Source of the DNA: Halobacterium jilantaiense
Lineage (GTDB): Archaea > Halobacteriota > Halobacteria > Halobacteriales > Halobacteriaceae
Direction of reading: 5' to 3'
Length of the DNA stretch: 64,000 nucleotides
Assembly (NCBI RefSeq): GCF_900110535.1
Contig: NZ_FOJA01000001.1
Coordinates: forward strand, 2,081,393-2,145,392
Translations under genes and position numbers: made by a program
Shown here: positions 2,597 to 59,035 of the stretch, piece by piece
How the letters are laid out: every line of letters starts with the position of its first letter
Position numbering within the stretch: the stretch's first letter is position 1
Notes under the pieces: model-generated
The model's input: only the letters and a program-made list of their open reading frames with translations
Told to the model about the DNA's origin: nothing
Databases searched by the model: none

Positions 2597-2698
2597 ATGC
2601 CCACAACCACCACCACGCTCGCGTTCGTCTGCGTGCAGAACTCCGTCTCACCTGCGGCGCGACGTGCGCTGCACGCCGCTCGGGCGGTGGTCGCGTGA
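2597..2698 (+). pseudogene. Truncated duplicate of the arsC 5' end
   Basis: A 33-codon frame starts ATG at 2597 and encodes MPTTTTTLAFVCVQN, the expected arsenate reductase N-terminus up to the phosphate loop. It then diverges (SVSPAARRALH) and stops. The same LAFVCVQN start recurs in the intact gene that begins at 2695. The stop of this fragment overlaps the GTG start of the intact gene by 4 nt (GTGA). It looks like the original 5' end of arsC cut off by an insertion that also duplicated the target. Confidence 0.7.
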
Positions 2699-2730
2699 CC
2701 ACTACCCTCGCGTTCGTCTGCGTGCAGAAC
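2618..2730 (+). repeat. 24-bp perfect direct repeat flanking a 65-bp palindrome-bearing block in arsC
   Basis: CTCGCGTTCGTCTGCGTGCA plus four further bases (24 nt) is identical at 2618-2641 and 2707-2730. The 65 nt between the copies holds the inverted repeats CGTGC-GCT-GCACG (with GCGG/CCGC outside) and GTGGTC-GCGT-GACCAC (2687-2702). The period is 89 nt, so the reading frame is not kept; the downstream copy restarts at GTG 2695. Confidence 0.8.
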
Positions 2731-3129
2731 GCTGGCCGCTCCCAGATGGCCGCCGTCTTCGCCGAGCGCGAAGCCGAACGCCGCGGCCTCGGCGACCGGG
2801 TGGAGGTGCTCACGGGCGGCACCCGCCCCGCCGACAGCGTCCACGACGCGGTCCGCGACGCGATGGCCGACGCCGGATTCGACCTCTCGGACCGCCAGCC
2901 GCGCGAAGTCGACCGCGAAACGCTCGGGAACTGCGACTACGTCGCGACGATGGGGTGCTCGACGCTCGACCTCGGAGCCGTCGCTGGGGTCGACGTTCGC
3001 GACTGGGCGCTCGCCGACCCCGACGGAGCCGACGCCGAGACGGTCCGGGAGATACGCGACGAGGTCGAACGCCGGGTCGTCGCGCTGTTCGACGAACTAG
3101 CGCGGGCGGAGACCGAACGCGGCCGGTAG
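2695..3129 (+). CDS. arsC: ArsC-type arsenate reductase of the low-molecular-weight phosphatase family
   Basis: 144 residues. CVQNAGRS near the N-terminus is the CX5R phosphate-binding loop, with the catalytic Cys at about residue 10. A later segment with GNCDYVATMGCSTLDL and a DWALADPDG motif corresponds to the family's DP loop. The enzyme would reduce arsenate to arsenite for export by the upstream ACR3 pump. The GTG start is chosen because it overlaps the preceding fragment's stop (GTGA) and puts the P-loop at the normal distance. The upstream duplicate suggests the present start was acquired after an insertion. Confidence 0.85.
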   Translation: MTTTLAFVCVQNAGRSQMAAVFAEREAERRGLGDRVEVLTGGTRPADSVHDAVRDAMADAGFDLSDRQPREVDRETLGNCDYVATMGCSTLDLGAVAGVDVRDWALADPDGADAETVREIRDEVERRVVALFDELARAETERGR

Positions 3130-3243
3130 GCTGCCGCACCCGCCGAGAGATACGTTTCGACCAGCGCGGCGGCGTGGCTGTCGAGTCCGGTGTACTGGCC
3201 GGTTCCGGGCTACTGGTCGGACGTGTCCACACCGGCACGACCG

Positions 3244-3444
3244 CTATGACGCGACGCCTTCGACCGCACTGCTCGCGAATAGAACGAACGAGAGCGCAGG
3301 ATGTTCCTCGGGGGCCGCGTCGAAGACGGTCGAGCCGTCGGTCTCTCCCACGTCGGAGTCGGTGACGACACAGCCGGCAGCCCGCTGCCGGCGTCGTTCC
3401 CGCGTGTCGTCGACGTGGCGGGCGTTGGTCGTGTTCTCTGACAT
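3244..3444 (-). CDS. Small acidic hypothetical protein
   Basis: 66-residue frame beginning MSENTTNARHVDDTRERR, with strong G/C third positions and an acidic middle (TDSDVGETDGSTVF), both as expected of real haloarchaeal genes. No signal peptide or known domain is recognised. An A/T island at 3484-3497, including a TTTTTAC stretch on this strand, lies about 45 nt before the ATG and could be the promoter, giving a leader of about 20 nt. No homologue is recognised, so a chance frame cannot be excluded. Confidence 0.45.
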   Translation of the reverse strand: MSENTTNARHVDDTRERRRQRAAGCVVTDSDVGETDGSTVFDAAPEEHPALSFVLFASSAVEGVAS

Positions 3445-3483
3445 GCTCGGGCTTGCGCCCACGTCATGTCGCGTAATCTCGTA

Positions 3484-3497
3484 GTAAAAATTTTTAC
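3484..3497. promoter_or_regulatory. 14-bp perfect A/T palindrome, candidate promoter/operator
   Basis: GTAAAAATTTTTAC is a perfect palindrome and the only strong A/T island between the DUF418 gene and the small ORF at 3244-3444. On the minus strand it could supply the TATA box of that ORF. The two halves are identical, so a regulator could bind over the TATA box. Transcription termination of the DUF418 gene is an alternative use. Confidence 0.4.
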
Positions 3498-3666
3498 ATG
3501 GATTGGCGGCCGCCCCTCCCGTTCGTCCAGCGCTGCGTCGACCAGCCGCTGTCGACACGGGTCTCGTGCCGCCCACTCGGCCAGTAGTGCGCTGGACAGT
3601 TCGGGCTCCGGAACGGCGCGCTCGCCGTCGACTGAGCCCGGTCGAGCGTGACTGACGGTGGAGAAA

Positions 3667-4884
3667 TCAGGCGTTCTCGGCGGTGTCTACTCGCATCGTG
3701 GGGAGCGTCCGGTAGGTGAGCGCGCGCCAGAGCCACTCCAGGGGACCGTACCGGAAGTACCGCAGCCAGAGCACCGAGAGGGGGACCTGGACCGCCCAGA
3801 TGGCGACGACGACGCCGAGGGCCTCGACGCGGGAGACGCGGCCGAACAGGCCGAGGCCGTGGCCGTAGAAGATGCTGGTGGCGACAACGGTCTGGAAGAT
3901 GTAGTTGCTGAACGCGGTGCGGCCGACGGCCGCCAGCCAGCGCGTCGCGGTGCCGTCCGGACGCCACGACGCCCACAGCATCACGAGACCGAGGTACGCG
4001 CCGGCGAGCGGGATGCTCCCCCAGTAGTTGAACTGGTGCCAGTACAGGGAGGCCGAGGCCGCCCAGCCGCTGGCCTCGATGTACCAGAGGCCGGCGAGGA
4101 TGGCGGCGAGACCGACGGTGCCACCGACGGCGGCGAGCCGCCGGTAGAAGCCCCTCGACCGCTCGTTCGTGATGACGCCGGTCTCGAACAGCGCCATCCC
4201 GTACAGCATCAGGCCGGCCGTCCGCCAGCTCGTGGAGGCGACGTAGCCCGAAGTCTGCCGGAAGAACGACGTGTCGACGCGGTGGCTCATCTGGCCGAGC
4301 CAGCCGCTCCGGTAGGCCTCGATTTCGGCCCGGAGCGCCGACTGGTCGGGCTGCCAGGAGGCCGCGAGCGCGGCCGGGTCGACGGCGAGCGCGGACAGCA
4401 CCTCCAGCGCCGACGGAATCAGGAGGAGCGCGGTGCCGACCATCGCGAGCTTCCGGGGCTCCCAGTCGCGGGCGAAGACGACGAACAGCGCGGTGACGCC
4501 GTACGCGACGAGGATGTCGCCGTACCAGAGCAGGTAGGCGTGTGCGAGCCCGAACGCGACGAGCCACAGCGACCGGCGGGTGTGGAGGGCGACGGCGTTG
4601 TCGCCGTCGCGCTCGCGGTTCCGCGTGAACAGCGCGACGCCGGCCCCGAACAGCAGCGTGAACAGCGTGATGAACTTCTGTTTCACGAGGACGTGGCCGG
4701 CGAGCCACGCCCAGTAGTTCGCGCCCGAGAAGTCGCCGTACGCGGTGGGGTTGAACAGCACGACTTCGGGCATCGAGAACACCCGGACGTTGATGACGAG
4801 GATGCCGAGGAGCGCGAACCCGCGGAGCGCGTCGAGGCCGACGATGCGCTCCGAGGGCGGAGTCGGGCTTCGTTCACCGCTCAT
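3667..4884 (-). CDS. DUF418-domain (YeiB-like) polytopic membrane protein
   Basis: 405 residues and about ten hydrophobic segments. The N-terminal RIVGLDALRGFALLGILVIN is the hallmark opening of DUF418/YeiB and related acyltransferase-like membrane proteins. FITLFTLLFGAGVALF and the C-terminal FSNYIFQTVVATSIFYG and GPLEWLWRALTY segments complete the DUF418 pattern. The biochemical role of the family is not established; transport or membrane-lipid acyl transfer has been suggested. It is monocistronic, with flanking gaps of about 220 bp on both sides. Confidence 0.85.
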   Translation of the reverse strand: MSGERSPTPPSERIVGLDALRGFALLGILVINVRVFSMPEVVLFNPTAYGDFSGANYWAWLAGHVLVKQKFITLFTLLFGAGVALFTRNRERDGDNAVALHTRRSLWLVAFGLAHAYLLWYGDILVAYGVTALFVVFARDWEPRKLAMVGTALLLIPSALEVLSALAVDPAALAASWQPDQSALRAEIEAYRSGWLGQMSHRVDTSFFRQTSGYVASTSWRTAGLMLYGMALFETGVITNERSRGFYRRLAAVGGTVGLAAILAGLWYIEASGWAASASLYWHQFNYWGSIPLAGAYLGLVMLWASWRPDGTATRWLAAVGRTAFSNYIFQTVVATSIFYGHGLGLFGRVSRVEALGVVVAIWAVQVPLSVLWLRYFRYGPLEWLWRALTYRTLPTMRVDTAENA

Positions 4885-5053
4885 CGACCCACCTCTCTGC
4901 GGCCGTCGGGTGCCGTCTGTCTCCGTGGTTCCCTCGGTCGACCATCACTGTTCACCTCGTGGCGTACCGGACACAAAGGTGTGGGTTCGCGGCCGCGCCG
5001 GCGCGGCGTGGCGGTCCCGGGACTCGGGCTGCTCCGAGCGGCGTTAAGCCGCC

Positions 5054-5069
5054 GCTATCCGAAGATAGC
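5054..5069. promoter_or_regulatory. GCTATC-CGAA-GATAGC inverted repeat near a TATA-like box
   Basis: A perfect 6-4-6 inverted repeat sits between a GCGTTAAGCC box and a GTATAG box, about 40 nt before the ATG of the small gene at 5109. It is a candidate regulator site for that gene. Confidence 0.3.
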
Positions 5070-5108
5070 CGACGTATAGCCAAGTCACCGTGCTCGGTGT
5101 GTCCGGCC

Positions 5109-5435
5109 ATGTCGACTAGCGAGGAGAGTCCGGCGGAGACGCTGGCGGACCTGCGGATGCTGGAACGCCTGCGTTTCGAGGTCGCGGACGAACAGTTCGA
5201 GGGGTACTCGCACCGCAAGCAGGTCGACGACGGCCGCATGTGGGTGGTGGTTCAGACGGAGGGCGACCGCGTGTTCCGCATCGAGACGCAGTGGGCGAAC
5301 GGCTGGCTGGAGCCGCTGGTCGACGAGTACGACGGCAGCGACGACTCCGTGGAGCCCGTCGGGAATCTCTCGGCCGTGGAGGCGCTGGGGTACACGCGTG
5401 ACGAGCGTGAGCGCGGCGCAGACGAGGCCCACTGA
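5109..5435 (+). CDS. Conserved-looking small hypothetical protein (108 aa)
   Basis: 108 residues, starting at the ATG of MSTSEESPAETLADLRMLERL; the frame is open further upstream but has poorer codon character there. The N-terminal helix is followed by an apparent antiparallel beta region (GRMWVVVQTEGDRVFRIETQW, quoted in part as GRMWVVV and RVFRIETQW) and an acidic C-terminus. No membrane helix, signal or known catalytic motif is visible and no function is assigned. It lies alone upstream of the thermosome gene on the same strand, with about 190 nt and a separate thermosome promoter between them. Confidence 0.7.
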   Translation: MSTSEESPAETLADLRMLERLRFEVADEQFEGYSHRKQVDDGRMWVVVQTEGDRVFRIETQWANGWLEPLVDEYDGSDDSVEPVGNLSAVEALGYTRDERERGADEAH

Positions 5436-5590
5436 CGGCTCGACCACCGATTCTAGTACTTAAACGCCTTCCCCCGGGCCATGGCTCGTGTGAACGACTA
5501 ACACAACAATCCCCGGCGTCAGTGTCCTTGCCTGCGGTACGGCGGCGACTCGGTCTGTCGGCTTCCCGGCAATCTCGTCGCAAAACACAT

Positions 5591-5600
5591 ACTTTTATAT
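5591..5600 (+). promoter_or_regulatory. TATA box of the thermosome gene
   Basis: ACTTTTATAT lies 28-37 nt before the ATG at 5628, the normal distance for a leaderless haloarchaeal transcript. This supports the 5628 start over the in-frame ATG at 5604, which would lie inside the promoter-to-start interval. Confidence 0.75.
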
Positions 5601-5627
5601 AGAATGGCAATCAATGTATCTATCACA

Positions 5628-7292
5628 ATGGCTCAGCAACAGCGAATGCAGGGGCAGCCGATGATCATCATGGGCGACGACGCGCAGCGCGTGAAAGACC
5701 GCGACGCCCAGGAACACAACATCTCGGCCGCCCGTGCGGTCGCAGACGCGGTACGCTCCACGCTCGGCCCGAAGGGCATGGACAAGATGCTCGTCTCCTC
5801 GATGGGCGACGTCACCGTCACCAACGACGGCGTCACCATCCTCCAGGAGATGGACATCGACAACCCGACCGCGGAGATGATCGTGGAAGTCGCCGAGACC
5901 CAGGAAGACGAGGCCGGCGACGGCACCACGACCGCGGTCGCCATCGCGGGCGAACTCCTGAAGAACGCCCAGAACCTCCTCGAACGCGACATCCACCCGA
6001 CGGCCATCATCAAGGGCTACAACCTCGCCGCCGAGCAGGCCCGCGAGGAAGTCGACAACGTCGCCGTCGACGTCGACCCCGACGACGAGGACCTCATCCG
6101 TAGCGTCGCCGAGACCTCGATGACCGGCAAGGGCGCGGAACTCGACAAGGAGCTGCTCTCCGGCATCATCTACGACGCCATCAATCAGGTCTCCGTCGAC
6201 ACCGACGAGGGCGGCATCGTCGTCGACGCGGCGAACATCAACATCGAGACCCAGACCGGTCGCGGCGTCGGCGAGAGCCAGCTGCTCCGCGGCGCGGCCA
6301 TCAGCAAGGACCCCGTCCACGACCAGATGCCCAGCGCGGTCGAGGACGCCAGCATCCTCCTCCTGAACGAGGCCATCGAAGTCGAGGAGGCAGAGGCCGA
6401 CACCTCCGTCAACATCGAGAGCCCCGACCAGCTCCAGTCCTTCCTCGACCAGGAGGAGAAGCAGCTCAAGCAGAAGGTCCAGCAGATCGTCGACACGGGC
6501 GCGGACGTCGTCTTCTGCCAGAAGGGCATCGACGACATGGCCCAGCACTACCTCGCGAAGGAGGGTATCCTCGCGGTCCGCCGCACCAAGAAGTCCGACA
6601 TCGAGTTCCTCACGAACGTGCTTGGCGCGTCCGTCGTCACGGACCTCGACGCGGCGTCCAGCGACGACGTCGTCTCCGGCTCCGTCACTCGCGACGAGGA
6701 GGACGAGCTGTTCTACGTCGAGGGTGCCAGCGACGACGCCCACGGCGTCACCATCCTCCTGCGCGGCTCCACCGACCACGTCGTCGACGAGCTCGAACGC
6801 GGCGTCTCCGACGCGCTCGACGTGTCCGCGCAGACGCTCTCGGACGGCCGCGTCCTCCCCGGTGGCGGTGCCACCGAGGTCGAGGTCGCCGACCGACTCC
6901 GTGACTTCGCGGACTCCGTCGAGGGCCGCGAGCAGCTCGCCGTCGAGGCGTTCGCCGACTCCCTGGAGCTCGTGCCTCGCGTCCTCGCCGAGAACGCGGG
7001 CCTGGACTCCATCGACACGCTCGTCGACCTGCGCTCCGCCCACGAGAGCGGCGAGGAGCGCACCGGCCTGAACGTCCTTTCCGGCGACCTCGAGGACACC
7101 TTCGAGGCCGGCGTCGTCGAGCCCGCGCACGCCAAGGAGCAGGCGGTCACGTCTGCCTCCGAGGCCGCGAACCTCGTGCTCAAAATCGACGACATCATCT
7201 CCGCCGGCGACCTCTCCACCGACAAGGGTGACGACGAGGGCGGTGCCGGCGGCATGGGTGGCATGGGCGGCGGCATGGGCGGCATGATGTAA
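5628..7292 (+). CDS. thsA: Thermosome (group II chaperonin) subunit
   Basis: 554 residues, the usual thermosome length. The N-terminus [19 protein letters not shown] and the ATP-site motifs [10 protein letters not shown] and [10 protein letters not shown] are clear, and [10 protein letters not shown] is present in the C-terminal equatorial half. The protein ends in a Gly/Met-rich tail ([14 protein letters not shown]), the disordered tail inside the chaperonin cavity. The sequence closely resembles the Halobacterium subunit as I remember it. It forms a cytosolic double-ring ATP-driven folding machine. A strong TATA box at 5591-5600 suggests high, possibly heat-induced, leaderless expression. 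Confidence 0.97.
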
Positions 7293-7433
7293 GCTCGGGC
7301 ACAGCCTAGCTTCCAGCACCCACCGAATTCGCCGTCGCACCGCTCGTCCGACCGATTTGCCGACTTCTTTCGACGCTCGTCGCGCAGCCGCTGCTGTGCG
7401 TTCCGTGTCGCGTGGAGAATCCGCGGCCCGTTA

Positions 7434-7892
7434 CTACTCGTCGACGTCGAGTTCGAACTGCTCGTTCTCGGCGGCGGCGTTCAGGACGACGCTCGTGTTG
7501 GACTCGTTGATGTCGGCGTCGGACAGCAGTTCCTTGATGAGCGCGTTCATGTCGTCGGTGTCCTGAAACTTCCCGACGGCGACGACGTCGTAGTCGCCGG
7601 TGACCTCGTAGACGGAGACCATCTGTTTGTGGCCGCGGAGCCGGTCCGTGATGTCGGGGAGGGCGTCACCGTCGACTTTGAGCTGGAGGATTGCGGTGAC
7701 GTCGAACCCGAGTCGCTCGTAGTCGACGACGGGCGTGTAGCCGTCGACGACGCCCTCGTCTTCGAGGGTCTGGAGGTGGTTCGAGACGGTGGTGACCGAG
7801 ACGTCGAGGTCGTCCGCGAGACTCCGGAGGCTCGCGCGACCGTCGCCGAGTAGTTCGTTGACCAGTTTCACGTCGAGGTTCTCGTAGGTCAT
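7434..7892 (-). CDS. lrp: Lrp/AsnC-family transcriptional regulator
   Basis: 152 residues. The N-terminal winged helix-turn-helix (about 1-55) includes [20 protein letters not shown]. The C-terminal RAM/ligand-binding domain (about 65-140) includes [35 protein letters not shown] is taken as the start because TATA-like CTTCTATACC sits about 26 nt upstream, giving a leaderless message. It is divergent from glnA with about 125 nt between starts, so control of glutamine synthetase and of itself is the natural inference. An inverted repeat (GAAGT...ACTTC) overlaps its promoter. Confidence 0.92.
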
Positions 7893-7913
7893 ACACCACG
7901 CTACCGACTCCAC

Positions 7914-7941: not shown

Positions 7942-8018
7942 TCTATCCTTCTGGCTCTACTTACACCGAGCGATACTCATTTAGTGATGGAAGTAGACCA
8001 CTCTTACCGTAGATAGAG

Positions 8019-11364: not shown

Positions 11365-11404
11365 ACGTCAGACTTCCACGGCGTCCGGTATAAATCGCCG
11401 CGGC

Positions 11405-17643: not shown

Positions 17644-18354
17644 TCACCGGTCCGCGCAGTAGTCGACGAAGTTCCGGAGGATGCGCAGTCCGGTCTCGCC
17701 GGACTTCTCTGGGTGGAACTGGGTGCCGAAGACGTTGCCGGCGTCGTTCGCGACGACGGCGGGGAACCGCTCGCCGTAGTCGGTCTCGGCGACGGTGTGA
17801 CCGGGGTCGTCGGGCGCGGCGTAGTAGGAGTGGACGAAGTAGGCGTGCTCGCCGTCGACGGAACCACCGGTGGTTCCGTCTGCTCGTTGCGTCTCTGACG
17901 AGACGGTGTCGACGCCGTCGACGAGCGGGTGGTCGCGCGTGACGTCCAGTTCGTTCCAGCCCATGTGTGGGACCTTCACGTCGCCCGTGAACCGGACGTT
18001 CCGGCCCGGAATGAGGTCGAGTCCTTTCGCGTCGCCCTGCCCTTCGCGGTCGGCCTCCTCGCTGGACGTCAGCAGCATCTGCATGCCGAGACAGATGCCG
18101 AACAGCGGCCGCCCCTCGTCGGCGGCGTCGACGAGCGCGTCCCGGAACGGGCCGGCGTTCTCCATGCCGTCGCCGAACGCCCCGACGCCCGGCAGCACGA
18201 TGCCGTCTGCGTCGTCCAGCGCGCCCGGGTCGTCAGAGACGGTGACGGCGGCGTCCGCGCGTTCCAGACCGCGCGTGACGCTCCGGAGATTCCCGAGCCC
18301 GTAGTCCACCACGACGACCTCGGCGGCCGTCTGGCGGGTGGCGGATTTACTCAT
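17644..18354 (-). CDS. hisH: Imidazole glycerol phosphate synthase, glutaminase subunit
   Basis: 236 residues from MSKSATRQTAAEVVVVDYG. VLPGVGAFGDGMEN, the nucleophile Cys88 in FGICLGMQML, the PHMGWNEL loop and the C-terminal FHPEKSG (His-Glu of the triad) define a class I glutaminase of HisH type. It supplies ammonia to HisF in histidine synthesis; no other his gene is nearby. Between PLVDG and VDGEHAYFVHSYY, residues 148-165 form an extra in-frame 18-residue insert encoded by palindromic DNA. The insert is in a surface loop before the conserved FVHSYY strand, so activity may survive. Confidence 0.93.
   Translation of the reverse strand: MSKSATRQTAAEVVVVDYGLGNLRSVTRGLERADAAVTVSDDPGALDDADGIVLPGVGAFGDGMENAGPFRDALVDAADEGRPLFGICLGMQMLLTSSEEADREGQGDAKGLDLIPGRNVRFTGDVKVPHMGWNELDVTRDHPLVDGVDTVSSETQRADGTTGGSVDGEHAYFVHSYYAAPDDPGHTVAETDYGERFPAVVANDAGNVFGTQFHPEKSGETGLRILRNFVDYCADR
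17854..17913 (-). repeat. Palindromic in-frame insertion in hisH
   Basis: A 54-bp block (17860-17913) lies between GTCGAC copies at 17854-17859 and 17908-17913. It contains a perfect 24-bp palindrome (17857-17880, centre ACCACCGGTGGT) and a CGTCTC-TGAC-GAGACG hairpin (17890-17905). Removing 54 bp restores the normal ...VDG-VDGEHAYF protein sequence in frame. Confidence 0.7.
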
Positions 18355-26664: not shown

Positions 26665-26864
26665 TCAGCACCACCTCCGCGGTGTTCGTCTCATCACCGC
26701 GACAGTTCGGCCGCGACCGGAAAGAGCGTAGTTTCAGATTAGTTGCGTTCGTCGAACTGACGCGGCCACGCACTCTCCGTTCGCGCAGTCCGAGGCCTTC
26801 ACTTCGCTCGCGGCTCGCGTCGTTCGCCGCTCGCCACTCCCGCGGTTCTCGCTCGCTACGCTCG

Positions 26865-26924
26865 GCTCACGGCTCGCTTCGCTCCCCGTTCGCCGTCCCG
26901 TGGGTCTCACTTGCTCCGACCCAC
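26865..26924. repeat. Intergenic palindromic block related to the bud32 insertion
   Basis: In the 283-bp gap between the oxidoreductase start and the serS end, 26865-26893 matches the reverse complement of 47940-47968 (inside bud32) at 27 of 29 positions. In both cases a GTGGGTC...GACCCAC inverted repeat follows (here 26900-26906 and 26918-26924). The rest of the gap, from about 26780, is low-complexity TCGCTC/CGCTCG-rich sequence with no credible gene. Confidence 0.7.
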
Positions 26925-26947
26925 GCACTCGCTCCGAACCGCGCCGT

Positions 26948-35038: not shown

Positions 35039-35103
35039 CGTCCCTAGAGAATCGGGGGGCCGGTATCAGTTTCGTGGTTTCTCACCGGGCGGTGGCCGCA
35101 GCC

Positions 35104-35308
35104 TGCGGCGCGGCCGGTGGCTTACCGCTCGAACGTGATCGCCGCGCCCTGCCACGACGACCTTTTGCGCTGCGCGAGCGGCGTCGCCGCTCGGCTCGGC
35201 AAAAGCTCGGCCAAAAGCACCGTCGGACCCCACTACGGGGGTCCTCGGTACCCGCGCCCGCGGCGCGGTCGGCGGCTTACCGTTCGAACGTGATCGCCGC
35301 GCCCTGCC
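35104..35308. repeat. Duplicated 50-bp thiolase 3' end flanking a palindrome-rich block
   Basis: 35104-35153 and 35259-35308 match at 46 of 50 positions. The second copy is the true 3' end of the thiolase gene (encoding ...[10 protein letters not shown]-stop); the first is an extra copy 155 bp downstream of it that also retains the ITFER-stop sequence. Between them are CGAGCGGCG-T-CGCCGCTCG (35174-35192) and GGACCCC-ACTAC-GGGGGTCC palindromes and two AAAAGCTCGG/CAAAAGC motifs. Confidence 0.8.
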
Positions 35309-45328: not shown

Positions 45329-45526
45329 ATGGCGTCGAACCGACTCGCGTGCCACGACTGCCACCGCATCGTGGAGCCCGACGAGGAGCGGTGTCCGCAC
45401 TGCCAGTCGAACAGCCTCACCGAGGACTGGGCGGGCTACGTGGTCGTCACGCACCCCGAGGAGTCCGAGATCGCGGAGAAGATGGAAGTCAGTGAGGCGG
45501 GCGAGTACGCGCTGAAGGTCCGCTGA
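45329..45526 (+). CDS. spt4: Transcription elongation factor Spt4
   Basis: 65 residues. ACHDCHRIVEPDEERCPHCQ gives the four-Cys zinc site, and GYVVVTHPEESEIAEKMEVS the Spt5-contact strand. Spt4 pairs with Spt5 (NusG-like) to keep archaeal RNA polymerase processive. Former name RpoE2. It abuts rpo7 without a gap. Confidence 0.96.
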   Translation: MASNRLACHDCHRIVEPDEERCPHCQSNSLTEDWAGYVVVTHPEESEIAEKMEVSEAGEYALKVR

Positions 45527-46572: not shown

Positions 46573-48210
46573 ATGCGCGTCGTCGGCGTCGAGGGCACCG
46601 CGTGGTGCGCGAGTGCAGCGCTGTACGACGCCGACGCTGATTCTGTCGTCATCGAGTCTGACGCGTACCAGCCGGACAGCGGCGGTATTCACCCGCGTGA
46701 GGCCGCCGAGCACATGCGGCAGGCGATTCCCCGAGTAATCGAGACGATTCTCGACGAGGCGGACGGTGACGTGGACGCGGTCGCGTTCTCCCGGGGGCCG
46801 GGCCTCGGCCCCTGCCTGCGCATCGTCGGGTCGGCGGCGCGCGCGCTCGCTCAGACGCTGGACGTGCCGCTGGTCGGCGTCAACCACATGGTGGCCCATC
46901 TCGAAATCGGGCGTCACGGGTCCGGGTTCGACGCGCCGGTCTGCCTGAACGCGAGCGGCGCGAACGCGCACGTGCTCGCGTACCGGAACGGCCGGTACCG
47001 CGTGCTCGGGGAGACGATGGACACCGGCGTCGGCAACGCCATCGACAAGTTCACGCGGCACGTCGGCTGGCAGCACCCCGGCGGCCCGAAGGTCGAGGCC
47101 CATGCGGCGGACGGCGAGTACACGGAGCTGCCGTACGTCGTGAAGGGGATGGACTTCTCGTTCTCGGGCATCATGAGCGCCGCCAAGCAGGCCGTCGACG
47201 ACGGCGTCCCCGTCGACGATGTCTGTCGGGGGCTGGAGGAGACGGTCTTCGCGATGCTCACGGAGGTCTCGGAGCGCGCGCTCGCGCTGACGGGTCGCGA
47301 CGAACTCGTCCTCGGTGGCGGCGTCGGGCAGAACGACAGGCTCCGGTCGATGCTCGCGGAGATGTGCGAGGCGCGCGGCGCGGAGTTCTACGCGCCCGAA
47401 CCCCGGTTCCTGCGGGACAACGCCGGAATGATTGCGGTGCTCGGTGCACGGATGGCCGAAGCCGGCGACACCCTCGACGTCGACGACTCCGCTATCGACT
47501 CGCACTTCCGGCCGGACGAGGTGCCGGTGACGTGGCGCGCGCCCGAGGCACCGCCGGCCCGCGAGGGGGCGGTCCGGCAGGGCGCGGAAGCCACCGTCAC
47601 CATCGAGGCCGACCGCGTCGTGAAAGAGCGCGTCCCGAAGCGCTACCGCCACGAGCGACTGGACGACCGCCTGCGGCGGGACCGCACCGTCCTCGAAGCC
47701 CGGTTGACGAGCGAGGCGCGGCGGCAGGGCGTCCCGACGCCGCTCGTCTGGGACGTCGACGTTCCCGAGGCGACCATCGAACTCCAGCACGTCGGCGACA
47801 GCGACCTCCGGGACGCCCTGAGCGAGCAGCGGGTCCGGGACGTGGGCCGGCACCTCGCTGCGATTCACCGCGCCGGGTTCGTGCACGGCGACCCGACGAC
47901 GAGAAACGTCCGGGTGGGTCCGCAGGACCCACCGAACGAGCGAACGGGGAGCAAAGCGACCCGTGAGCAACGGGTGGGTCCCGAAGACGACCGCACGTTC
48001 CTCATCGACTTCGGGCTCGGCTACTACACGGACGACGTGGAGGACTACGCGATGGACTGCCACGTCTTCGAGCAGAGCCTCGCGGGCACCGCGGACGACG
48101 CGGACGCGCTCGTGGCGGCGTTCGAGCAGTCCTACCGGACAGTCGGTGATTCGGCGGTGCTCGACCAACTGCGCGCCATCGAGGGTCGCGGGCGGTACCA
48201 GGACGACTGA
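46573..48210 (+). CDS. kae1-bud32: Fused Kae1-Bud32: tRNA t6A threonylcarbamoyltransferase and atypical kinase
   Basis: 545 residues. Kae1 (1 to about 320) has the metal motif NHMVAHLEIG with His105 and His109, and the ASKMT fold blocks GVEGTAWCASAAL and ELVLGGGVGQNDRL. Bud32 (about 335-545) has VVKERVPKRYRH (kinase Lys), the catalytic loop VHGDPTTRNV (Asp440) and DFG in FLIDFGLGYY (Asp479). As part of KEOPS it makes t6A37 of ANN-decoding tRNAs. Residues 447-466 between loop and DFG are an in-frame 20-residue insertion flanked by repeated RVGP, encoded by palindromic DNA. Confidence 0.95.
   Translation: MRVVGVEGTAWCASAALYDADADSVVIESDAYQPDSGGIHPREAAEHMRQAIPRVIETILDEADGDVDAVAFSRGPGLGPCLRIVGSAARALAQTLDVPLVGVNHMVAHLEIGRHGSGFDAPVCLNASGANAHVLAYRNGRYRVLGETMDTGVGNAIDKFTRHVGWQHPGGPKVEAHAADGEYTELPYVVKGMDFSFSGIMSAAKQAVDDGVPVDDVCRGLEETVFAMLTEVSERALALTGRDELVLGGGVGQNDRLRSMLAEMCEARGAEFYAPEPRFLRDNAGMIAVLGARMAEAGDTLDVDDSAIDSHFRPDEVPVTWRAPEAPPAREGAVRQGAEATVTIEADRVVKERVPKRYRHERLDDRLRRDRTVLEARLTSEARRQGVPTPLVWDVDVPEATIELQHVGDSDLRDALSEQRVRDVGRHLAAIHRAGFVHGDPTTRNVRVGPQDPPNERTGSKATREQRVGPEDDRTFLIDFGLGYYTDDVEDYAMDCHVFEQSLAGTADDADALVAAFEQSYRTVGDSAVLDQLRAIEGRGRYQDD
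47911..47981 (+). repeat. 60-bp palindromic in-frame insertion in the Bud32 kinase domain
   Basis: CGGGTGGGTCC occurs at 47911-47921 and 47971-47981, exactly 60 bp (20 codons) apart. Inside are GGTGGGTCC-GCA-GGACCCACC (47913-47933) and the 29-nt core 47940-47968 also found, reversed, at 26865-26893. Deleting one 60-bp unit restores NVRVGPEDDRTFLIDFG. Confidence 0.82.
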
Positions 48211-52873: not shown

Positions 52874-54385
52874 ATGGCCGCCTCGGGACCGTCAGACGAC
52901 CGCAGCGTCCCAGATCTCGACGCACTCGCCCAGGACGCGGAGTTCTTCCGCTCGCTGGTCGACAACGGGTCGGACGCCATCGTCACTATCGACGAACACA
53001 GCACCATCCGGTACGCCAACCAGGCGGTCGAGCGCGTCTTCGGGTACGCACCGGAGGACCTGATCGGCGAGAAACTCACCGCTGTCATGCCCGAGCGATT
53101 CTGCGCCGACCACTTCGACGCCGTCGACCGCTACCTCGACACCGGCGAACGCCAACTCGACTGGAGCAACATCGAGTTGCCCGCCGAACACGCCGACGGC
53201 CACGAGATTCCGCTCTCGATCACGTTCGAGGAACACGTCCACGAGGACGACCGCGTGTTCTCCGGCATCATGCGGGACATCTCCGCCCGGAAGTCCTACG
53301 AGGAGACGCTCGAATCCCTCCAGGCCACGGCGCGAGCGCTGATGGAGGCCCGCACCAGTTCGGCCATCGGCGACTGCGCCGTGGACGCCGCCGTCGACGT
53401 CATCGGCTTCCCGCTGGCCTCCCTGTACCGCCACGACGCCGCCAGCAACGTGCTGCGACCGGCCGCACAGAGCGACGACGCGGTCGACCTCTTCGGGGAG
53501 GCACCGACGCTCGCGGACGGCAGCCTCGCGTGGCAGGCGTTCCAGTCCGGCGACCCGGCGGAGTACCACGAGGACGACGACCGCGACGTCCCCGTCCACC
53601 GCCCCGACGGGCCGGTCGCCGCCGAGTACGCCGTCCCGCTCGGCGACCACGGCGTCCTGCTCGTCGCGGACACCGACACCGCCAACTTCGACGACCACAC
53701 GAAACACCTCGTGCGCATCCTCGCGGCGAACACGGAGGCCGCGCTCGCCCGCGCCGAACGCGAAGCCGAACGCGAACGACAGAACGAGCGCCTCGAACGG
53801 TTCGCGAGCATCGTCTCCCACGACCTCAGAGACCCCATCCAGTCCGCCCGGGCCACCACCGCGCTCGCGAAAGCCGGCGACGAGACGGCTCTCGACGACC
53901 TCGAAACCATCTTCGACCGCATGGAGGAACTCGTCGAGGACGTTCTCACGCTCGCCAAGCACGGCCAGGCCGTCGGCGAGACGGAGCCGGTCTCGCTGGC
54001 AGCGGTCGCCGACGACGCGTGGTCGACCGCCGGCACCGACGACGCCACGCTCGACGTCGACCCCGACCTCCCGACGCTGCAGGCGGACGGCGAACGCCTC
54101 CGCACACTCCTCGAGAACCTCTTCCGGAACTCGGTGACACACGGCGGTGACGCCGTCACGGTCACGCTCGGCCCCACCGACGACGGCTTCTACGTCGCCG
54201 ACGACGGGGCCGGCTTCGGCGACGCCGACCCCGAACAGCTCTTCGACTACGGCTACACGACCAGCGAGGACGGCACGGGCTTCGGCCTGAGCATCGTCCG
54301 GGACGTCGTCACGGCCCACGGCTGGACCATCGAGGCGTCCGAATCCGCGGCCGGTGGAGCCCGCTTCGACGTTCACCCGAGGTGA
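52874..54385 (+). CDS. PAS-GAF sensor histidine kinase
   Basis: 503 residues, cytoplasmic. PAS (about 20-140, with IRYANQAVERVFGYAPEDLI), GAF (about 150-300), HisKA with FASIVSHDLRDPIQSARAT (His316) and HATPase with LENLFRNSVTHGG, VADDGAGFGDAD and GTGFGLSIV. It should phosphorylate the response regulator encoded 6 nt downstream. TTTACAAC about 30 nt before the ATG may be the TATA box. The signal is unknown. Confidence 0.93.
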   Translation: MAASGPSDDRSVPDLDALAQDAEFFRSLVDNGSDAIVTIDEHSTIRYANQAVERVFGYAPEDLIGEKLTAVMPERFCADHFDAVDRYLDTGERQLDWSNIELPAEHADGHEIPLSITFEEHVHEDDRVFSGIMRDISARKSYEETLESLQATARALMEARTSSAIGDCAVDAAVDVIGFPLASLYRHDAASNVLRPAAQSDDAVDLFGEAPTLADGSLAWQAFQSGDPAEYHEDDDRDVPVHRPDGPVAAEYAVPLGDHGVLLVADTDTANFDDHTKHLVRILAANTEAALARAEREAERERQNERLERFASIVSHDLRDPIQSARATTALAKAGDETALDDLETIFDRMEELVEDVLTLAKHGQAVGETEPVSLAAVADDAWSTAGTDDATLDVDPDLPTLQADGERLRTLLENLFRNSVTHGGDAVTVTLGPTDDGFYVADDGAGFGDADPEQLFDYGYTTSEDGTGFGLSIVRDVVTAHGWTIEASESAAGGARFDVHPR

Positions 54386-54391
54386 CTACAC

Positions 54392-54988
54392 ATGGACTCA
54401 CGCACACCCGACGACACGGACACCGCGACGACTACGGACACCGACGACCGCCCGGTCGTCCTCGCTGTCGACGACGAACCACGCGTCGTCGAGGCGTTCG
54501 CCCTCTGGCTGGAGGACGACTACCGCGTGCTGACCGCCACCAGCGGCGAGGAGGCCCTCGAGGTGGCCGACGACAGCGTCGACGTGGCGCTGCTCGACCG
54601 ACAGATGCCGGGGACGACCGGCGACGAGGTCCTCGAAGAACTCCGGAACCGGGGACTCGACTGCCGGGTGGCGATGGTCACCGGCGTCGACCCCGACTTC
54701 GACATCGTCGAGTTGCCCTTCGAGGAGTACGTCCAGAAGCCCGTCGACGGCGACGCGCTCCACGACGTGGTCGGCCGCCTGCTCGACCTCGAACAGTACG
54801 ACGACTCCGTCGACGACCTCTACGCGGTCGTCCAGAAGCGCGTGACGCTCGAAGCCGAACTCCCCGACTCCGCGCTCGAAGACAACGACGAGTACCAGCG
54901 ACTCCGCGACCGCGAACGCGACCTCCAGAACGAGACCCAGTCGGTCATCGAGGACCTCGACGACGACGAGTTCGCGAAGCTCTTCTAG
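54392..54988 (+). CDS. Response regulator with HalX-type C-terminal domain
   Basis: 198 residues. The receiver domain (about 20-135) has VVLAVDDEPRVVEAFAL, the phospho-acceptor Asp69 in VALLDRQMPGTTG, and a VQKPVDGDALHD lysine. The C-terminal 60 residues (LYAVVQKRVTLEAELPDSAL, then a charged helix) fit the HalX domain common in haloarchaeal regulators; no winged helix is present. Cognate to the kinase upstream. How HalX proteins signal is not known. The stop overlaps the convergent small gene by 4 nt. Confidence 0.92.
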   Translation: MDSRTPDDTDTATTTDTDDRPVVLAVDDEPRVVEAFALWLEDDYRVLTATSGEEALEVADDSVDVALLDRQMPGTTGDEVLEELRNRGLDCRVAMVTGVDPDFDIVELPFEEYVQKPVDGDALHDVVGRLLDLEQYDDSVDDLYAVVQKRVTLEAELPDSALEDNDEYQRLRDRERDLQNETQSVIEDLDDDEFAKLF

Positions 54989-55221
54989 CCCATCCGCGTC
55001 AGCAGGTCTTCGACGTACTCCGGCACCGCGACGTCCGCCAGCGCCCCGGTCTCGTCCCAGGACGCCACGACCTCGTAACTGCCGTCGCGGTCGAGGTCGA
55101 GTTCCCACTTCGTGCCGTCCTCGTCGGTCACCTCCACGCGCGCCCCGCCGGACTCCAGCGGATGCTGGGGCGCTATCTCCACCGTGTTCCCGTTGTAGGC
55201 TTCGACGGTTTCCGCGTCCAT
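54985..55221 (-). CDS. Small hypothetical protein coupled to a methyltransferase
   Basis: 78 residues from MDAETVEAYNGNTVEIAPQH, or 95 from a GTG at 55272 that would overlap the methyltransferase stop (GTGA). A beta-rich domain (GARVEVTDEDGTKWELDLDR, SYEVVASWDET) is followed by a short helix. No function is recognised. Cotranscription with the upstream methyltransferase is likely. Confidence 0.7.
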   Translation of the reverse strand: MDAETVEAYNGNTVEIAPQHPLESGGARVEVTDEDGTKWELDLDRDGSYEVVASWDETGALADVAVPEYVEDLLTRMG

Positions 55222-55268
55222 GGACGGGAGTACGTCGCCCCGGTACTTGAGGCTTCGAGGACGCTGTG

Positions 55269-56024
55269 TCACTTCACCAGCTCCCAGACCTGCACGTCGT
55301 CCCCGTCACCGAGCGGCTGTCCGTCGAACCCACCGTTGACCGTCCACTCGGTGAACGGGGACTGTCGGGCGAGCAACTCGACCTGCTGGGCTGGCAGGTG
55401 CGAGAGTACGAACTCGTCTCGGGCGACGACCTCGCCGCCAGCGTCGCGGAGCTCCTGTTCGGTGCGGTAGGTCTGTGCCGTCTCGTCGGCGAGTATGGCC
55501 CGCGACCGGCCAGTCAGCGTCTCGTCGCCGTACTCGAACTCCCGGACACTGTGCCACTCACCGAACGACTCCGCGACAACCTCGTAGCGAGGGACGTAAA
55601 CGTCGAACAGCAGGCGACCGCCGTCGGCCAGCACGTCGTACAGCGAGCGCAGCGCCGCGAGCTGGTCGTCAACGGTCTGGAGGACGCACATCGAGTTGTA
55701 CGGCACTACTGCCAGCTCGTACGTCCGGTCGGCCCCGACCGTCCGCAGGTCCGCCTGCCAGACCGCCGGCGACAACCCCTCTCTGGCCGCCTGTTCGCGG
55801 AGCAGTGACAGCATCGGGGTGGACGCGTCGAAGCCGTCGGCGTCGACGCCCTGTCGACAGAACTCCAGATAGAGCCGGCCGCTCCCGCAGGCTCCCTCCA
55901 GTACGGGTCCGTCAGCCGCCGTCGCCGCGCCGACGTAGAACCCCTCATCGCCCACGTCACCGTAGTCGTGGGTGGCCTCGTAGAACGCTGCCAGCGGTGC
56001 AGAAAACCCCTCTGGTTCGCTCAC
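55269..56024 (-). CDS. Class I SAM-dependent methyltransferase
   Basis: 251 residues. VLEGACGSGRLYLEFCRQGV is motif I and its helix, VDADGFDASTPMLSLLREQA (in part) motif II, and LAVVPYNSMCVLQTVDDQLA motif IV/V. LRSLYDVLADGGRLLFDVYV ends the core. The C-terminal beta region resembles small-molecule methyltransferases. Substrate unknown. Followed by a small gene on the same strand. Confidence 0.9.
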   Translation of the reverse strand: MSEPEGFSAPLAAFYEATHDYGDVGDEGFYVGAATAADGPVLEGACGSGRLYLEFCRQGVDADGFDASTPMLSLLREQAAREGLSPAVWQADLRTVGADRTYELAVVPYNSMCVLQTVDDQLAALRSLYDVLADGGRLLFDVYVPRYEVVAESFGEWHSVREFEYGDETLTGRSRAILADETAQTYRTEQELRDAGGEVVARDEFVLSHLPAQQVELLARQSPFTEWTVNGGFDGQPLGDGDDVQVWELVK

Positions 56025-56134
56025 TTCGGGTTCGTCGGAGCGACGCAGTATAAGCGTTGCCGGGGGTTCCGCGATTCGACACTCGTTTCGGTTCCGTAGA
56101 GATGAAACTCCACGATTTGTCGCTTCGCAGGAAG

Positions 56135-56206
56135 AGCCTAGGCCGGAATTTGAATCCGGGGTCTCGTCCTTACCAAGGACGCGCTTTACCGCTAAGCTAC
56201 CCAGGC
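56135..56206 (-). tRNA. tRNA-Thr (GGT anticodon)
   Basis: 72 nt on the minus strand. Acceptor GCCTGGG pairs with CCTAGGC, anticodon loop TTGGTAA between CGTCC/GGACG gives anticodon GGT, and the T-arm is CCGGA-TTCAAAT-TCCGG. No encoded CCA; the discriminator base is T. Confidence 0.93.
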
Positions 56207-56250
56207 ACGCATTCCGAGAAAGGTTCGGGAGTAACTTTAGGCGTTTCGAT

Positions 56251-56916
56251 TCAGCGGTCGCCGACGGACGGCGTGCCGACCCGGTCGTCCCCCGTCTGGG
56301 TGCCGACTCGCGCCATCACGTCCTCGACGCCCTCCGGGAGCGCGTCGCCGGAGTCCGGCAGCGGCGGTTCGCCGTGGTTGTCGGCGAGGCCCACGAGGTA
56401 CTGCCGGAGCGGCACCGGCGCTTCGGAGCCGGACGTCGAACCGCCGGCGATGGCGGCGAGCTCGAAGACGTTCGCCTCCAGGCCGCGGTCGGTCGGCGTG
56501 CGGTCGGCGTGCTGGTCGGTCTGCTCGCGGCCGAACGCCCGAACGGTCTCGACGGCCTGCTCGGCAGCCTCGGTGCGCGCGAGCAGCCGGAATCCCCGTG
56601 CGACGAGCACGTCGGCGGCGAGGATGTCGAGGTCGGCCGTCGGGTCGTCGGCGTCGGCGTGCGTCCACGGCTCGGCGGCGACCAGCGAGCGCGTGACGCG
56701 CAGCCCGTCGTAGATGAGCTGCACACCGGCTGCTCGTCGGGATGCGGCGTGGTCGTCGACCGCACCGTCGACGACGCGGGCGCTGAGAACGGTCAGGACG
56801 CCCGGAAGCATCGAGGACGACGCGACGTGGTCGTCGATGACCGCCCGGAGCCCGTCGGGTTCGACGTCCGCGACGGCCTCTCTGGCGGCGGCACTTACCT
56901 GCTCGGCCTCGTCCAT
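56251..56916 (-). CDS. Haloarchaea-type helical protein of unknown function
   Basis: 221 residues from MDEAEQVSAAAREAVADVEP. The middle is a helical bundle (MLPGVLTVLSARVVDGAVDD, GVQLIYDGLRVTRSLVAAEP, DLDILAADVLVARGFRLLAR) that recalls polyprenyl-synthase-like all-helical folds, but the DDxxD motifs are absent. No catalytic residues are recognised. It is divergent from the crotonase gene with 60 nt between starts. Confidence 0.75.
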   Translation of the reverse strand: MDEAEQVSAAAREAVADVEPDGLRAVIDDHVASSSMLPGVLTVLSARVVDGAVDDHAASRRAAGVQLIYDGLRVTRSLVAAEPWTHADADDPTADLDILAADVLVARGFRLLARTEAAEQAVETVRAFGREQTDQHADRTPTDRGLEANVFELAAIAGGSTSGSEAPVPLRQYLVGLADNHGEPPLPDSGDALPEGVEDVMARVGTQTGDDRVGTPSVGDR

Positions 56917-56976
56917 CTTGGTCGGACTAGCGGTGGCAACGGCAAAGACCTTTGGAAACCACACCTAGCCACCGGC

Positions 56977-57645
56977 ATGCTCTCGGTGACCGACGGCGAC
57001 CACCTGCGCGAGATTCTCCTCGACCGGCCGGCCAAGCGAAACGCTCTCACGCGCGACGGACTGGACCGCCTCCGAGAGTGCGTCGAGTCGGCCGCCCAGC
57101 CCGTCGTCTACGTCCACGGTGCTGGCGACGCGTTCAGCGCCGGTGCCGACCTCGACACAGTCCAGCGTCTGGACGGCGAATCCGGGCAGGCGTTCGCCCG
57201 CCGCGGCCAGCGCACGATGAACGCTATCGCGGACGCCGACAGCGTCGTGGTCGCGGGCGTCGACGGCCCCGCCCGGGGTGGCGGCGTCGAACTCGCGCTC
57301 GCCTGCGACGTCCGCGTCTGCACGCCGCGCGCGTCGTTCGCGGAGACCGGAGTCACTCTCGGCCTGTTCGGTGCCTGGGGCGGCACCCGGCGGCTCCGGC
57401 AGGCGGTCGGCTCCACGCACGCCGCCGACCTCTCGCTCTCGGGTCGAGCCGTCGACGCGGACGAAGCCCGAGAGATGGGGCTGGTCTCCCGGGTCGTCGA
57501 CGACCCGCGGCGGGTCGCCGAAGAGATTGCGGCCAACGACCCGGACGCGCTCCGAGAACTGACGCCGCTGCTGCGGGTGGACGGCGACCGGGAGACGACC
57601 GACGACCGCGAAGCGGCGGCGTTCGGCCGACTGCTCGACGAATAG
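56977..57645 (+). CDS. Enoyl-CoA hydratase/isomerase family (crotonase) protein
   Basis: 222 residues. GAGDAFSAGADLDTV is the first oxyanion-hole segment, VDGPARGGGVELALACDVRV the second. FAETGVTLGLFGAWGGTRRL carries a Glu at the position used by hydratases. Shorter than typical (about 255-260), with a reduced C-terminal helix. It may hydrate or isomerise an acyl-CoA in fatty acid degradation; the exact substrate is unknown. Confidence 0.88.
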   Translation: MLSVTDGDHLREILLDRPAKRNALTRDGLDRLRECVESAAQPVVYVHGAGDAFSAGADLDTVQRLDGESGQAFARRGQRTMNAIADADSVVVAGVDGPARGGGVELALACDVRVCTPRASFAETGVTLGLFGAWGGTRRLRQAVGSTHAADLSLSGRAVDADEAREMGLVSRVVDDPRRVAEEIAANDPDALRELTPLLRVDGDRETTDDREAAAFGRLLDE

Positions 57646-57658
57646 CGGCTCTCCGGCG

Positions 57659-58465
57659 TTACGGCGCTGGCGGCATCGCGCGCTTGTGCTCGCTCGCCTC
57701 GTAGAGCTCCCGGACGGTCTCGACCACGGTCGCGTCGACGCCGAGGTGGTCGGCCGTCGCGCTCGCCGGGACGCCGCCCTCGACGTGGACGGCGAGCACG
57801 GCGTCGATGACATCGTAGCCGACGCCGAGTTCGCCCTCGTCGGTCTGGTCGGCCCACAGCCCCGCGGTCGGCGCTTTCGTCACGAGGTCCTCGGGGACGC
57901 CGAGGTCGCGGGCGAGCTGCCGGACCTGCATCTTGTAGAGATTCCCGATGGGGTTGCAGTCGACGGCCTGGTCGCCGTACTTCGTGTAGTAGCCCGTCAT
58001 CGCCTCCGCGCGGTTCCCCGTCCCCAGCACGAGGCCCTGCTCGTGGTTCGCGACGAAGTAGTTCAGGACGGCTCTCGTCCGCGCGCGAGCGTTCCCGACC
58101 GCGAGCTCGTCGTCGGCCGCGTCGGGGTAGATGTCTGCGAGCTGGTCGACGAACGGGTCGATTTCGACGACGTCGTACTCGATGCCGAGGTCCTCGGCGA
58201 CGCGCTCGGCGTCGCTCATGTTCTCGTCGCTGGACACCGCGCCCGGCATCACGAGTCCGTGCAGGGCGTCCGCGCCGAGTTCGTCGACGGTCAGGTGCGC
58301 GACGGTCGTCGAGTCGATGCCGCCCGAGAGCCCGAGCACGCAGCGCTCGGCACCCGCGGCGTCGACAGTTTCTCGAACGAACGACTGGATGCGGTCTCGA
58401 CGGTCCGCGAGTTCGGCGTCCGAGAAGCGAAGGTCGAGCGGCTCGACGGTCTCTGGGGCACTCAT
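57659..58465 (-). CDS. nadE: NAD+ synthase, ammonia-dependent
   Basis: 268 residues from MSAPETVEPLDLRFSDAELA. The PP-loop is LGLSGGIDSTTVAH (Ser47-Ser52). VLGTGNRAEAMTGYYTKYGD and NPIGNLYKMQVRQLA bind deamido-NAD. No glutaminase domain is present, so ammonia is the nitrogen donor. Last step of NAD synthesis. An imperfectly spaced palindrome (58520-58533) lies in its upstream region. Confidence 0.95.
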   Translation of the reverse strand: MSAPETVEPLDLRFSDAELADRRDRIQSFVRETVDAAGAERCVLGLSGGIDSTTVAHLTVDELGADALHGLVMPGAVSSDENMSDAERVAEDLGIEYDVVEIDPFVDQLADIYPDAADDELAVGNARARTRAVLNYFVANHEQGLVLGTGNRAEAMTGYYTKYGDQAVDCNPIGNLYKMQVRQLARDLGVPEDLVTKAPTAGLWADQTDEGELGVGYDVIDAVLAVHVEGGVPASATADHLGVDATVVETVRELYEASEHKRAMPPAP

Positions 58466-58519
58466 CGCCCCTAGATTCGGCGCACCGCGACTAAAACCCC
58501 CGCGCCCGGGCGAGAAACT

Positions 58520-58533
58520 TGGACGAACGTCCA
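58520..58533. promoter_or_regulatory. TGGACG-AA-CGTCCA palindrome upstream of nadE
   Basis: A perfect 6-2-6 inverted repeat 55-68 nt before the nadE ATG. It is a candidate operator; no TATA box is obvious between it and the start. Confidence 0.35.
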
Positions 58534-58637
58534 CTCCGCGAAGCGCTACGTTCAAGTGCAGGCGCAGACAAATCCCGGTCGCGCGCTGGTGGTGAGCGGA
58601 CCCGACGGGTTCGCGAGGTACAGCGCAAGTGCAACGG

Positions 58638-58708
58638 GCGCTGGTGGTCTAGTGGTAGGACATGAGCTTCCCAAGCTCATAGCCCGGGTTCAATTCCCGG
58701 CCAGCGCA
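58638..58708 (+). tRNA. tRNA-Gly (CCC anticodon)
   Basis: 71 nt. Acceptor GCGCTGG pairs with CCAGCGC, D-arm GGTCTAGTGGTAGGACA, anticodon loop TTCCCAA between TGAGC and GCTCA gives CCC, T-arm CCGGG-TTCAATT-CCCGG; discriminator A, no encoded CCA. Two further copies of its 3' end follow downstream. Confidence 0.95.
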
Positions 58709-59035
58709 CTCCCCTGAAACTCGAACCGACCAGCGACGGCTGTGTCGCTGTTCGTTCGATTCGTCACGTGGCTTCGCGAGGGAATTGAGCCCTGCCAGTC
58801 GCGCGCAGCGAACACAGTGAGCGAGCACGTCTGGCTCTGGTTCAATTCCCGGCCAGCGCACTTCGCAATCTCACTTCGTTCGACAGCTCGTGCGCTGCCG
58901 ACGTCTCGTTCGCTCCGCTCACGAGATTTCCGGAAGACGCGTAGCGTCTTCCGACGTTCGCAGTCCTGCGGACTGCTCACTCCCGGCCAGCGCACTCCTC
59001 TGGAACTCGAACCGCCAGCGACGGCCGTGTCGCCG
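58709..59035 (+). repeat. Tandem copies of the tRNA-Gly 3' end with palindromic filler (372-bp gene-free stretch)
   Basis: The 24 nt 58687-58710 (tRNA 3' end plus CT) recur exactly at 58839-58862. The 56 nt 58695-58750 recur with about five differences at 58981-59035. The filler holds CGGAAGACGC-GTA-GCGTCTTCCG and GCAGTCC-TGC-GGACTGC hairpins and a TCTCG...CGAGA pair. No integrase or credible gene lies in 58709-59080; frames here encode peptides such as AGRELN from tRNA sequence. Confidence 0.85.

Follow-up and report, generated by a model that had tools for sequence, protein, structure and literature searches.

Palindromic inserts within coding sequences occur in some bacteria, above all in Rickettsia. 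The REPs that accompany RAYTs are, according to excerpts of PMC3733652, short palindromes with a GTAG or CGTC tag and varied complementary stems, located mostly behind genes and sometimes inside open reading frames, with one site (recB) struck in two species; the same excerpts mention the palindromic elements of Rickettsia. For Haloquadratum, excerpts of PMC3119063 describe PATEs, whose end palindromes are common to IS605-type transposons, and SMRs, which have terminal inverted repeats and mostly strike other mobile elements; neither is said to duplicate its target. The intergenic terminators of Haloferax, again from part of the source, are T stretches behind genes, some of them with hairpins (PMC7237163). 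Here I analyse a stretch of 64,000 nt (the window) in contig 1 of the 2.95-Mb genome of Halobacterium jilantaiense (G000), in which blocks with hairpins and repeats of host DNA are located at arsC, hisH, the end of a thiolase gene, bud32 and tRNA-Gly.

A first-pass annotation had proposed one undescribed family of small palindromic elements at these five sites. Each of the five blocks is real; compared with those of relatives, however, they fall into three kinds, namely in-frame double-hairpin inserts (bud32 and hisH), a hairpin between T tracts next to a copied gene end, hereafter the T-element (thiolase), and older duplications (arsC and tRNA-Gly). I give about an even chance to the account set out below, in which three different things had been joined. 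A single family, suggested by host DNA repeats around all five blocks and clear hairpins in four, is highly improbable, as no common sequence was found among the bud32 core, the hisH insert and the thiolase element, and the arsC and tRNA-Gly arrangements are common to several species. Other parts of that annotation are borne out: no transposase is present within the element, and the protein-coding inserts at hisH (54 nt) and bud32 (60 nt) keep the frame and show host duplication. The length of the duplications is not fixed (6 nt at hisH, 11 at bud32, 53 at the thiolase). Its proposed comparison with empty sites gives filled and empty sites for hisH and the thiolase, but shared arrangements for arsC and tRNA-Gly.

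The scales used are 13 genomes of the genus, 26 of the family and 292 of the class (59 for the class scan of the T-element), with syntenic stretches from ten congeners. Closest to G000 is G011 (Halobacterium sp. TGN-42-S1), with 86% mean identity across aligned parts against about 81-83% for the other congeners, among them G012 (H. salinarum DSM 3754) and G017 (Halobacterium sp. KA-4). The named records closest in bud32 are Halobacterium as well. The features are collected in Table 1.

Table 1. Features of the five blocks and of the intergenic core copy, in window coordinates
Feature	Position	Strand	Basis or remark
kae1-bud32 fusion gene, 545 aa, host of the insert	46573..48210	+	Open reading frame, motifs; relatives in 26/26 family genomes
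bud32-loop in-frame insert, 60 nt, includes second CGGGTGGGTCC copy	47922..47981	+	Relatives with related insert or none
Hairpin 1: GGTGGGTCC-GCA-GGACCCACC	47913..47933	+	
Hairpin 2 = repeat core GCGAACGGGGAGCAAAGCGACCCGTGAGC	47940..47968	+	BLAST; one stem version in 114/292 class genomes
Intergenic composite copy: core 26865-26893 and GTGGGTC/GACCCAC stem 26900-26924	26865..26924	-	
hisH insert, 54 nt, two hairpins; GTCGAC copies 17908-17913 and 17854-17859	17856..17909	-	
T-element, TTTTGGCCGAGCTTTT-hairpin-AAAAGG on thiolase strand	35161..35216	-	
Second thiolase 3' end copy, behind T-element	35101..35153	-	
Thiolase 3' end and first bases past stop, gene-joined copy	35256..35308	-	
arsC 5' repeat (2618-2641 and 2707-2730) and part between	2618..2730	+	Outside element class
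tRNA-Gly and downstream repeats of tRNA 3' end	58638..59034	+	Outside element class

Double-hairpin inserts in bud32, hisH and other genes

The bud32 insert is located between HGDPTTRN and DFG of a Kae1-Bud32 fusion. Direct copies of the 11-nt stretch CGGGTGGGTCC flank it (47911-47921 and 47971-47981), its right arm repeats this duplicated host stretch in inverted orientation, and its folds beat those of shuffles as DNA (z -2.42) and as RNA (z -3.67). Several family genomes carry a related insert at the identical site, while others are empty. The survey was extended by 80 further loci (the best 80 of 361). A set of 105 loci was reduced to 92 by dropping duplicate trimmed proteins and loci without a pattern match; a two-hairpin insert is present at this one site in 15 of these 92 haloarchaeal sequences. 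Long loops arranged as hairpin 1, RACGAGCG, hairpin 2, GAGC are found in Natrinema, Haloarcula, Halarchaeum and a metagenome-assembled genome beside Halorussus. Inserts recur in the loop between HGDxxxxN and DFG, and I assign the bud32 insert to a REP-like, haloarchaea-wide class with two hairpins, a RACGAGC joint, short G-rich caps, complementary arms and free stem sequence.

The stems of the bud32 inserts mostly differ between carriers yet stay complementary. Perfect stems of at least 8 bp occur in 7 of the 25 long loops, against 0.39 expected from codon shuffling (maximum 3 in 300 sets), and in none of the 67 short loops. In 12 selected rows with 9 distinct left arms, 92 of 96 cells are paired (shuffles: mean 53, maximum 81), a result biased towards paired rows because 13 of the 25 rows were removed, either for want of a clear stem or for a different layout; the test proper is the stem test over all 25 rows. 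The arms for this count were centred on the hairpins, as RNAalifold over 8 bud32 inserts misregistered hairpin 1 in some rows.

Covariation is also expected of a preserved structure. It is conceivable that a single ancient insertion into the bud32 loop was followed by many losses, the hairpins being kept by selection for structure in mRNA or DNA and the stems drifting by compensatory change, which would agree with the one site and layout across several families and with the decayed hairpin 1 common to G000 and G011. I consider this somewhat unlikely, as the stems are unrelated even in close species, the carriers are patchy, the core doubles as a multi-copy intergenic repeat and similar inserts stand at unrelated places in other genes. 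On a loop-free tree, the 15 carriers among the 92 rows require at least 11 changes, where a carrier had to show an ER..RE-like motif and at least 21 residues, so that decayed inserts were scored absent.

Hairpin 2 is the repeated part of the insert. As the first-pass annotation had stated, this core matches the intergenic copy in 27 of 29 positions, and both adjoin a GTGGGTC...GACCCAC stem in the same order; the block at 26755-26945 that holds the intergenic copy is absent from G010, G014, G016, G008 and G017. Genome searches of the kind suggested by that annotation find the core far beyond two places, with 6 additional BLAST matches in G000 and, for a degenerate core at no more than 2 mismatches, 7 sites in G000, counting bud32 and 26865. 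At the same tolerance it is present in 20 of the 26 family genomes (control 0), and one stem version alone is found in 40 of 77 genera of the class (reversed control 0). Many of the family matches show paired stem changes, e.g. ACGGG/CCCGT, GCGGG/CCCGC and ACGCG/CGCGT. The layout is GC-GA-stem-GA-GC-GNA-GC-GA-stem'-GA-GC, from which the bud32 copy itself deviates by one base; GCGNAGC is an unusually stable DNA mini-hairpin. In 464 kb of G000, a perfect 6-7 bp stem accompanies 5 of 42 cap signatures, against at most one in each of 11 control layouts. Perfect hairpins in general show a mild excess in a 464-kb sample (loop 3 and stem of at least 7: 119 vs 97 in one Markov set), and k-mer enrichment gave a signal dominated by codon usage. 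In G010 (C1:2168942-2169430) the core motif forms a tandem array of seven GAGCGGGGAGCGTAGCGACCCGCGAGC copies at a regular spacing of 77 nt.

The hisH insert contributes 18 codons. The site is filled in G000 (GTCGAC-48 nt-GTCGAC, in line with the first pass) and in G010 (GTCGAC-48 nt-ATCGAC), and empty in the other 11 of 13 genus genomes, including G011, the closest relative of G000. The two inserts are equal at 44 of 48 positions (by eye), and the surrounding aligned stretch is 81.8% identical. Behind hisH, hairpins resembling the T-element vary in their triplets, with GTA/TAC in G010 and CCA/TGG in G018, and G008 also has such a hairpin; G000 has a different sequence directly behind the gene.

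The window has 61 genes supported by congeners, and only in hisH and bud32 does G000 have an insertion of at least 18 aa that is absent from more than half of the congeners. Their stems measure 10 and 9 bp, against no more than 6 bp in the other insertions listed. In the congeners, 5 of 11 insertions have a stem of at least 8 bp, and the figure for control stretches is 16 of 220; one gene in two species accounts for two of the five. The thresholds of a MAFFT insertion census were too strict for the bud32 and histidine kinase inserts, both of which it missed. In-frame palindromic inserts are present in unrelated genes, in hisH and bud32 and, in congeners, in kae1 and the gene at 45495. Within kae1 there is a second recurrent site, with long forms in 6 of 45 distinct pattern-matching segments; the cap GAGCGNAGCGA is present in four of these six (Halobacterium TGN-42-S1, two Halolamina and one Haloarchaeobius). 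Host duplications were seen by eye at the kae1 insert of G009 (TCGACGC) and in the gene at 45495 of G010 (GGACGCCG), and a diverged one at the insert in a histidine kinase gene of G011. Inserts of different genes, examined as DNA, showed no common element sequence.

Replication slippage with template switching could create both hairpins and host duplications with no mobile element involved. The inverted host copy in the right arm at bud32, the variable duplication lengths and the mostly unique insert sequences would suit such a process. I regard it as decidedly unlikely, for it leaves the class-wide core and the recurrence of sites unexplained, and a search within 1 kb gave, the flanking duplications apart, no local donor for the inserts beyond chance, the longest matches being at or below the control 95% point.

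Movement of the double-hairpin inserts, and the enzyme behind it, I infer from these patterns. Their DNA may enter as single-stranded hairpins recognised through shape, mobilised in trans, most likely by an enzyme of the IS200/IS605 type (HUH/Y1), current or ancestral, which would parallel what has been proposed for REPs and RAYTs; an insert would persist where the frame is kept within a loop. Several observations weigh against this reading. No match to a Y1 transposase (PF01797) was found in G000 or in 5 other genus genomes (7 of the 13 have one), and those without a match include the insert-bearing G009 and G011 and the T-element-rich G016. IS605-type elements are said, in excerpts of PMC3119063, to yield no target duplication. 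The hisH insert is not a repeat, as a 33-nt part of it, at no more than 3 mismatches, is single-copy in 2 of the 26 family genomes and was found nowhere else among them. Many empty hisH sites already hold a tandem GTCGACGGC, so slippage could produce the extra GTCGAC. A duplication at kae1 residue 227 in G011 was rejected as a candidate, being already present in the empty site. The nearest relative, G011, does not offer a clean empty bud32 site, as a decayed hairpin 1 remains there, and the tree change counts at bud32 do not separate gain from loss. Finally, a scan of 1.89 Mb for hairpin-RACGAGC-hairpin gave 9 unique hits, and control motifs gave 7, 2 and 7; with counts this near the controls, the RACGAGC linker is no proof of a single class.

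A broader proposal, which I consider unlikely, is a haloarchaeal class of mobile DNA set by single-strand shape and not by sequence, in which hairpins with short G-N-A-type caps and freely exchangeable stems would time and again add new peptides to the same loops of essential proteins such as Kae1-Bud32, with a sister terminator-like element that duplicates gene ends. A class with kept architecture but free stems would make it testable, in tractable archaea, whether an enzyme recognises sequence or shape, and would account for variable loops in conserved proteins.

The T-element and copied gene ends

At the thiolase gene an imperfect 53-nt direct repeat surrounds a hairpin element, in agreement with the first reading of this site. 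The order on the gene strand is thiolase end, stop, spacer, TTTTGGCCGAGCTTTT, hairpin, AAAAGG and second thiolase end. The site is filled by two tandem units in G010 and by one each in G014 and G013, and is empty in G008, G011, G012, G016 and G017; in G009 and G018 it holds other sequence, with no second copy seen. Equivalent structures are found at citrate synthase in G010, G008 and G016, where 7 other congeners have a single copy. G014 shows such a structure at a GST-like gene, and G282, from another family, at a purM-like gene; the gene names were read from translations.

The pattern TTTT-NSYSNAGM-TTTT-hairpin-AAAAGG is present in 12 of the 13 genus genomes (reversed control 0) and in 37 of 59 class genomes (one match in the reversed control), where pattern counts can score one site twice, by its AAAAGG and by its AAAAG end (the 12 listed for G000 are 10 places). 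A subset of 94 unique sites has 200 nt on each side in the fetched DNA, tandem units being counted separately. Flanking repeats exceed the control maximum at 12 of these sites and the control 95% point at 17. In 11 of those 12, the second copy begins within 10 nt of the T-element, and wherever the gene could be named, the repeat is a copy of its 3' part. In 50 of the 94, a convergent gene has its stop codon 2-7 nt from the end of the element, with genes found by a heuristic on G+C at the third codon position. The only genus genome without a T-element match is that of H. salinarum DSM 3754 (G012), which nevertheless shows two matches to the Y1 transposase, one of them interrupted by an internal stop.

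In 73 of 94 sites (shuffles: mean 37, maximum 51) the triplet that precedes the second T tract is complementary to the one behind the hairpin, in five versions; 17 of the remainder are GTA with TCC. The triplet before the G at the 5' foot of the hairpin is GTA in 65, CGA in 20, GGA in 6, CCA in 2 and GCA in 1 of the 94, the AG at this foot being fixed by the search pattern itself. IS200/IS605 elements use guide and cleavage sequences, and the pairing of the triplets would fit either the base of a stem or a recognition pair of that kind.

The T-element, as a hairpin between T tracts, is predicted to be terminator-like on both strands. I favour a spread by recombination along with adjoining gene ends, a minority having probably arrived with a second copy of the 3' part of the neighbouring gene. 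Another origin for repeats of the thiolase type would be tandem duplication, or recombination with a foreign allele in which a donor gene end with its terminator was joined to the recipient gene and the old end left behind. In G010 the citrate synthase copy behind the element retains the ancestral downstream flank (compared with G017), the two copies differ, and gene and spacer move together with the element, as this explanation would have it. However, in the cases read the final unit of a series never ends in another T-element, and in 11 of the 12 best cases the junction follows the element at a distance of 0-10 nt, tighter than random recombination would need. I put its chances slightly below even. 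A T-element accompanied by the duplicate of a gene end suggests a route for the spread of terminators and the replacement of gene 3' ends.

The arsC and tRNA-Gly blocks

Both of these blocks had been counted in the single family; their repeats are real, but the arrangements are shared with congeners. At arsC, the 24-nt repeat belongs to a short open reading frame before the gene that repeats the first codons of arsC, and the whole arrangement, with a similar middle part, is also present in G011, G013 and G018; of the 10 congeners, these 3 are the ones for which both anchors could be located. I judge this block to be an old partial duplication outside the element class. The open reading frame of 33 codons (2597-2697, MPTTTTTLAFVCVQNSVSPAARRALHAARAVVA) overlaps the start of arsC, has counterparts in the same three genomes and could be a leader peptide.

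In the tRNA-Gly block the 3' end of the tRNA is repeated and there are several hairpins, among them one with a GAGCGGAGCGA cap. Resembling blocks were found in G011, G016, G014 and G008; that of G009 is short, G012 has none, and among the matches listed there was none for G010, G013, G017 and G018. It looks like an inherited remnant of a candidate attachment site. Behind the tRNA, at 58720-58860, an inverted copy of the T-arm (GGGAATTGAGCC...GGTTCAATTCCC) is common to G011 and others.

Comparison with described systems

In the titles and abstract openings of open-access papers, with subscription papers mostly outside, I found neither a haloarchaeal class of coding hairpins nor a T-element with a gene-end copy described. 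REP/RAYT, PATE, MITE and Rickettsia-type elements each miss one defining feature tested, and the elements of the window are therefore not called members of any of them; for REP/RAYT, PATE and the Rickettsia type, what stands in the way is host duplication, free stems and the absence of any Y1 transposase match from G000.

As far as the excerpted accounts reach, the likeness to REPs lies in short palindromes with varied but complementary stems and in the 5' foot of the hairpin, which reads GTAG (65 of 94) or NNAG, a tag seen at T-elements only. As for repeats of one sequence within a genome, G000 has 7 sites of the bud32 core and 1 of the hisH insert. The differences are the missing RAYT in G000 and the host duplications; the T-elements also differ in their pair of T tracts, in the matching triplet that follows the hairpin and, at some sites, in the copy of a gene end. 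PATEs are likewise small palindrome-bearing haloarchaeal DNA without a transposase, but here there are duplications, an extra GTCGAC at hisH (where slippage is possible) and the 53-nt repeat at the thiolase. SMRs are similarly short, without a transposase and of unexplained movement; unlike the elements described here, they have terminal inverted repeats. In-frame palindromic inserts in unrelated protein genes recall the elements of Rickettsia, which however form sequence families, whereas the hisH insert is unique and the bud32 stems vary freely. In contrast to MITEs, the hisH and bud32 inserts have, by inspection, no matching element ends, and their duplications of 6 and 11 nt are not of fixed length. 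From the Haloferax terminators, again as excerpted, the T-elements are set apart by their conserved layout, which includes a pair of T tracts and a covarying triplet, and at some sites by the duplication of a gene end.

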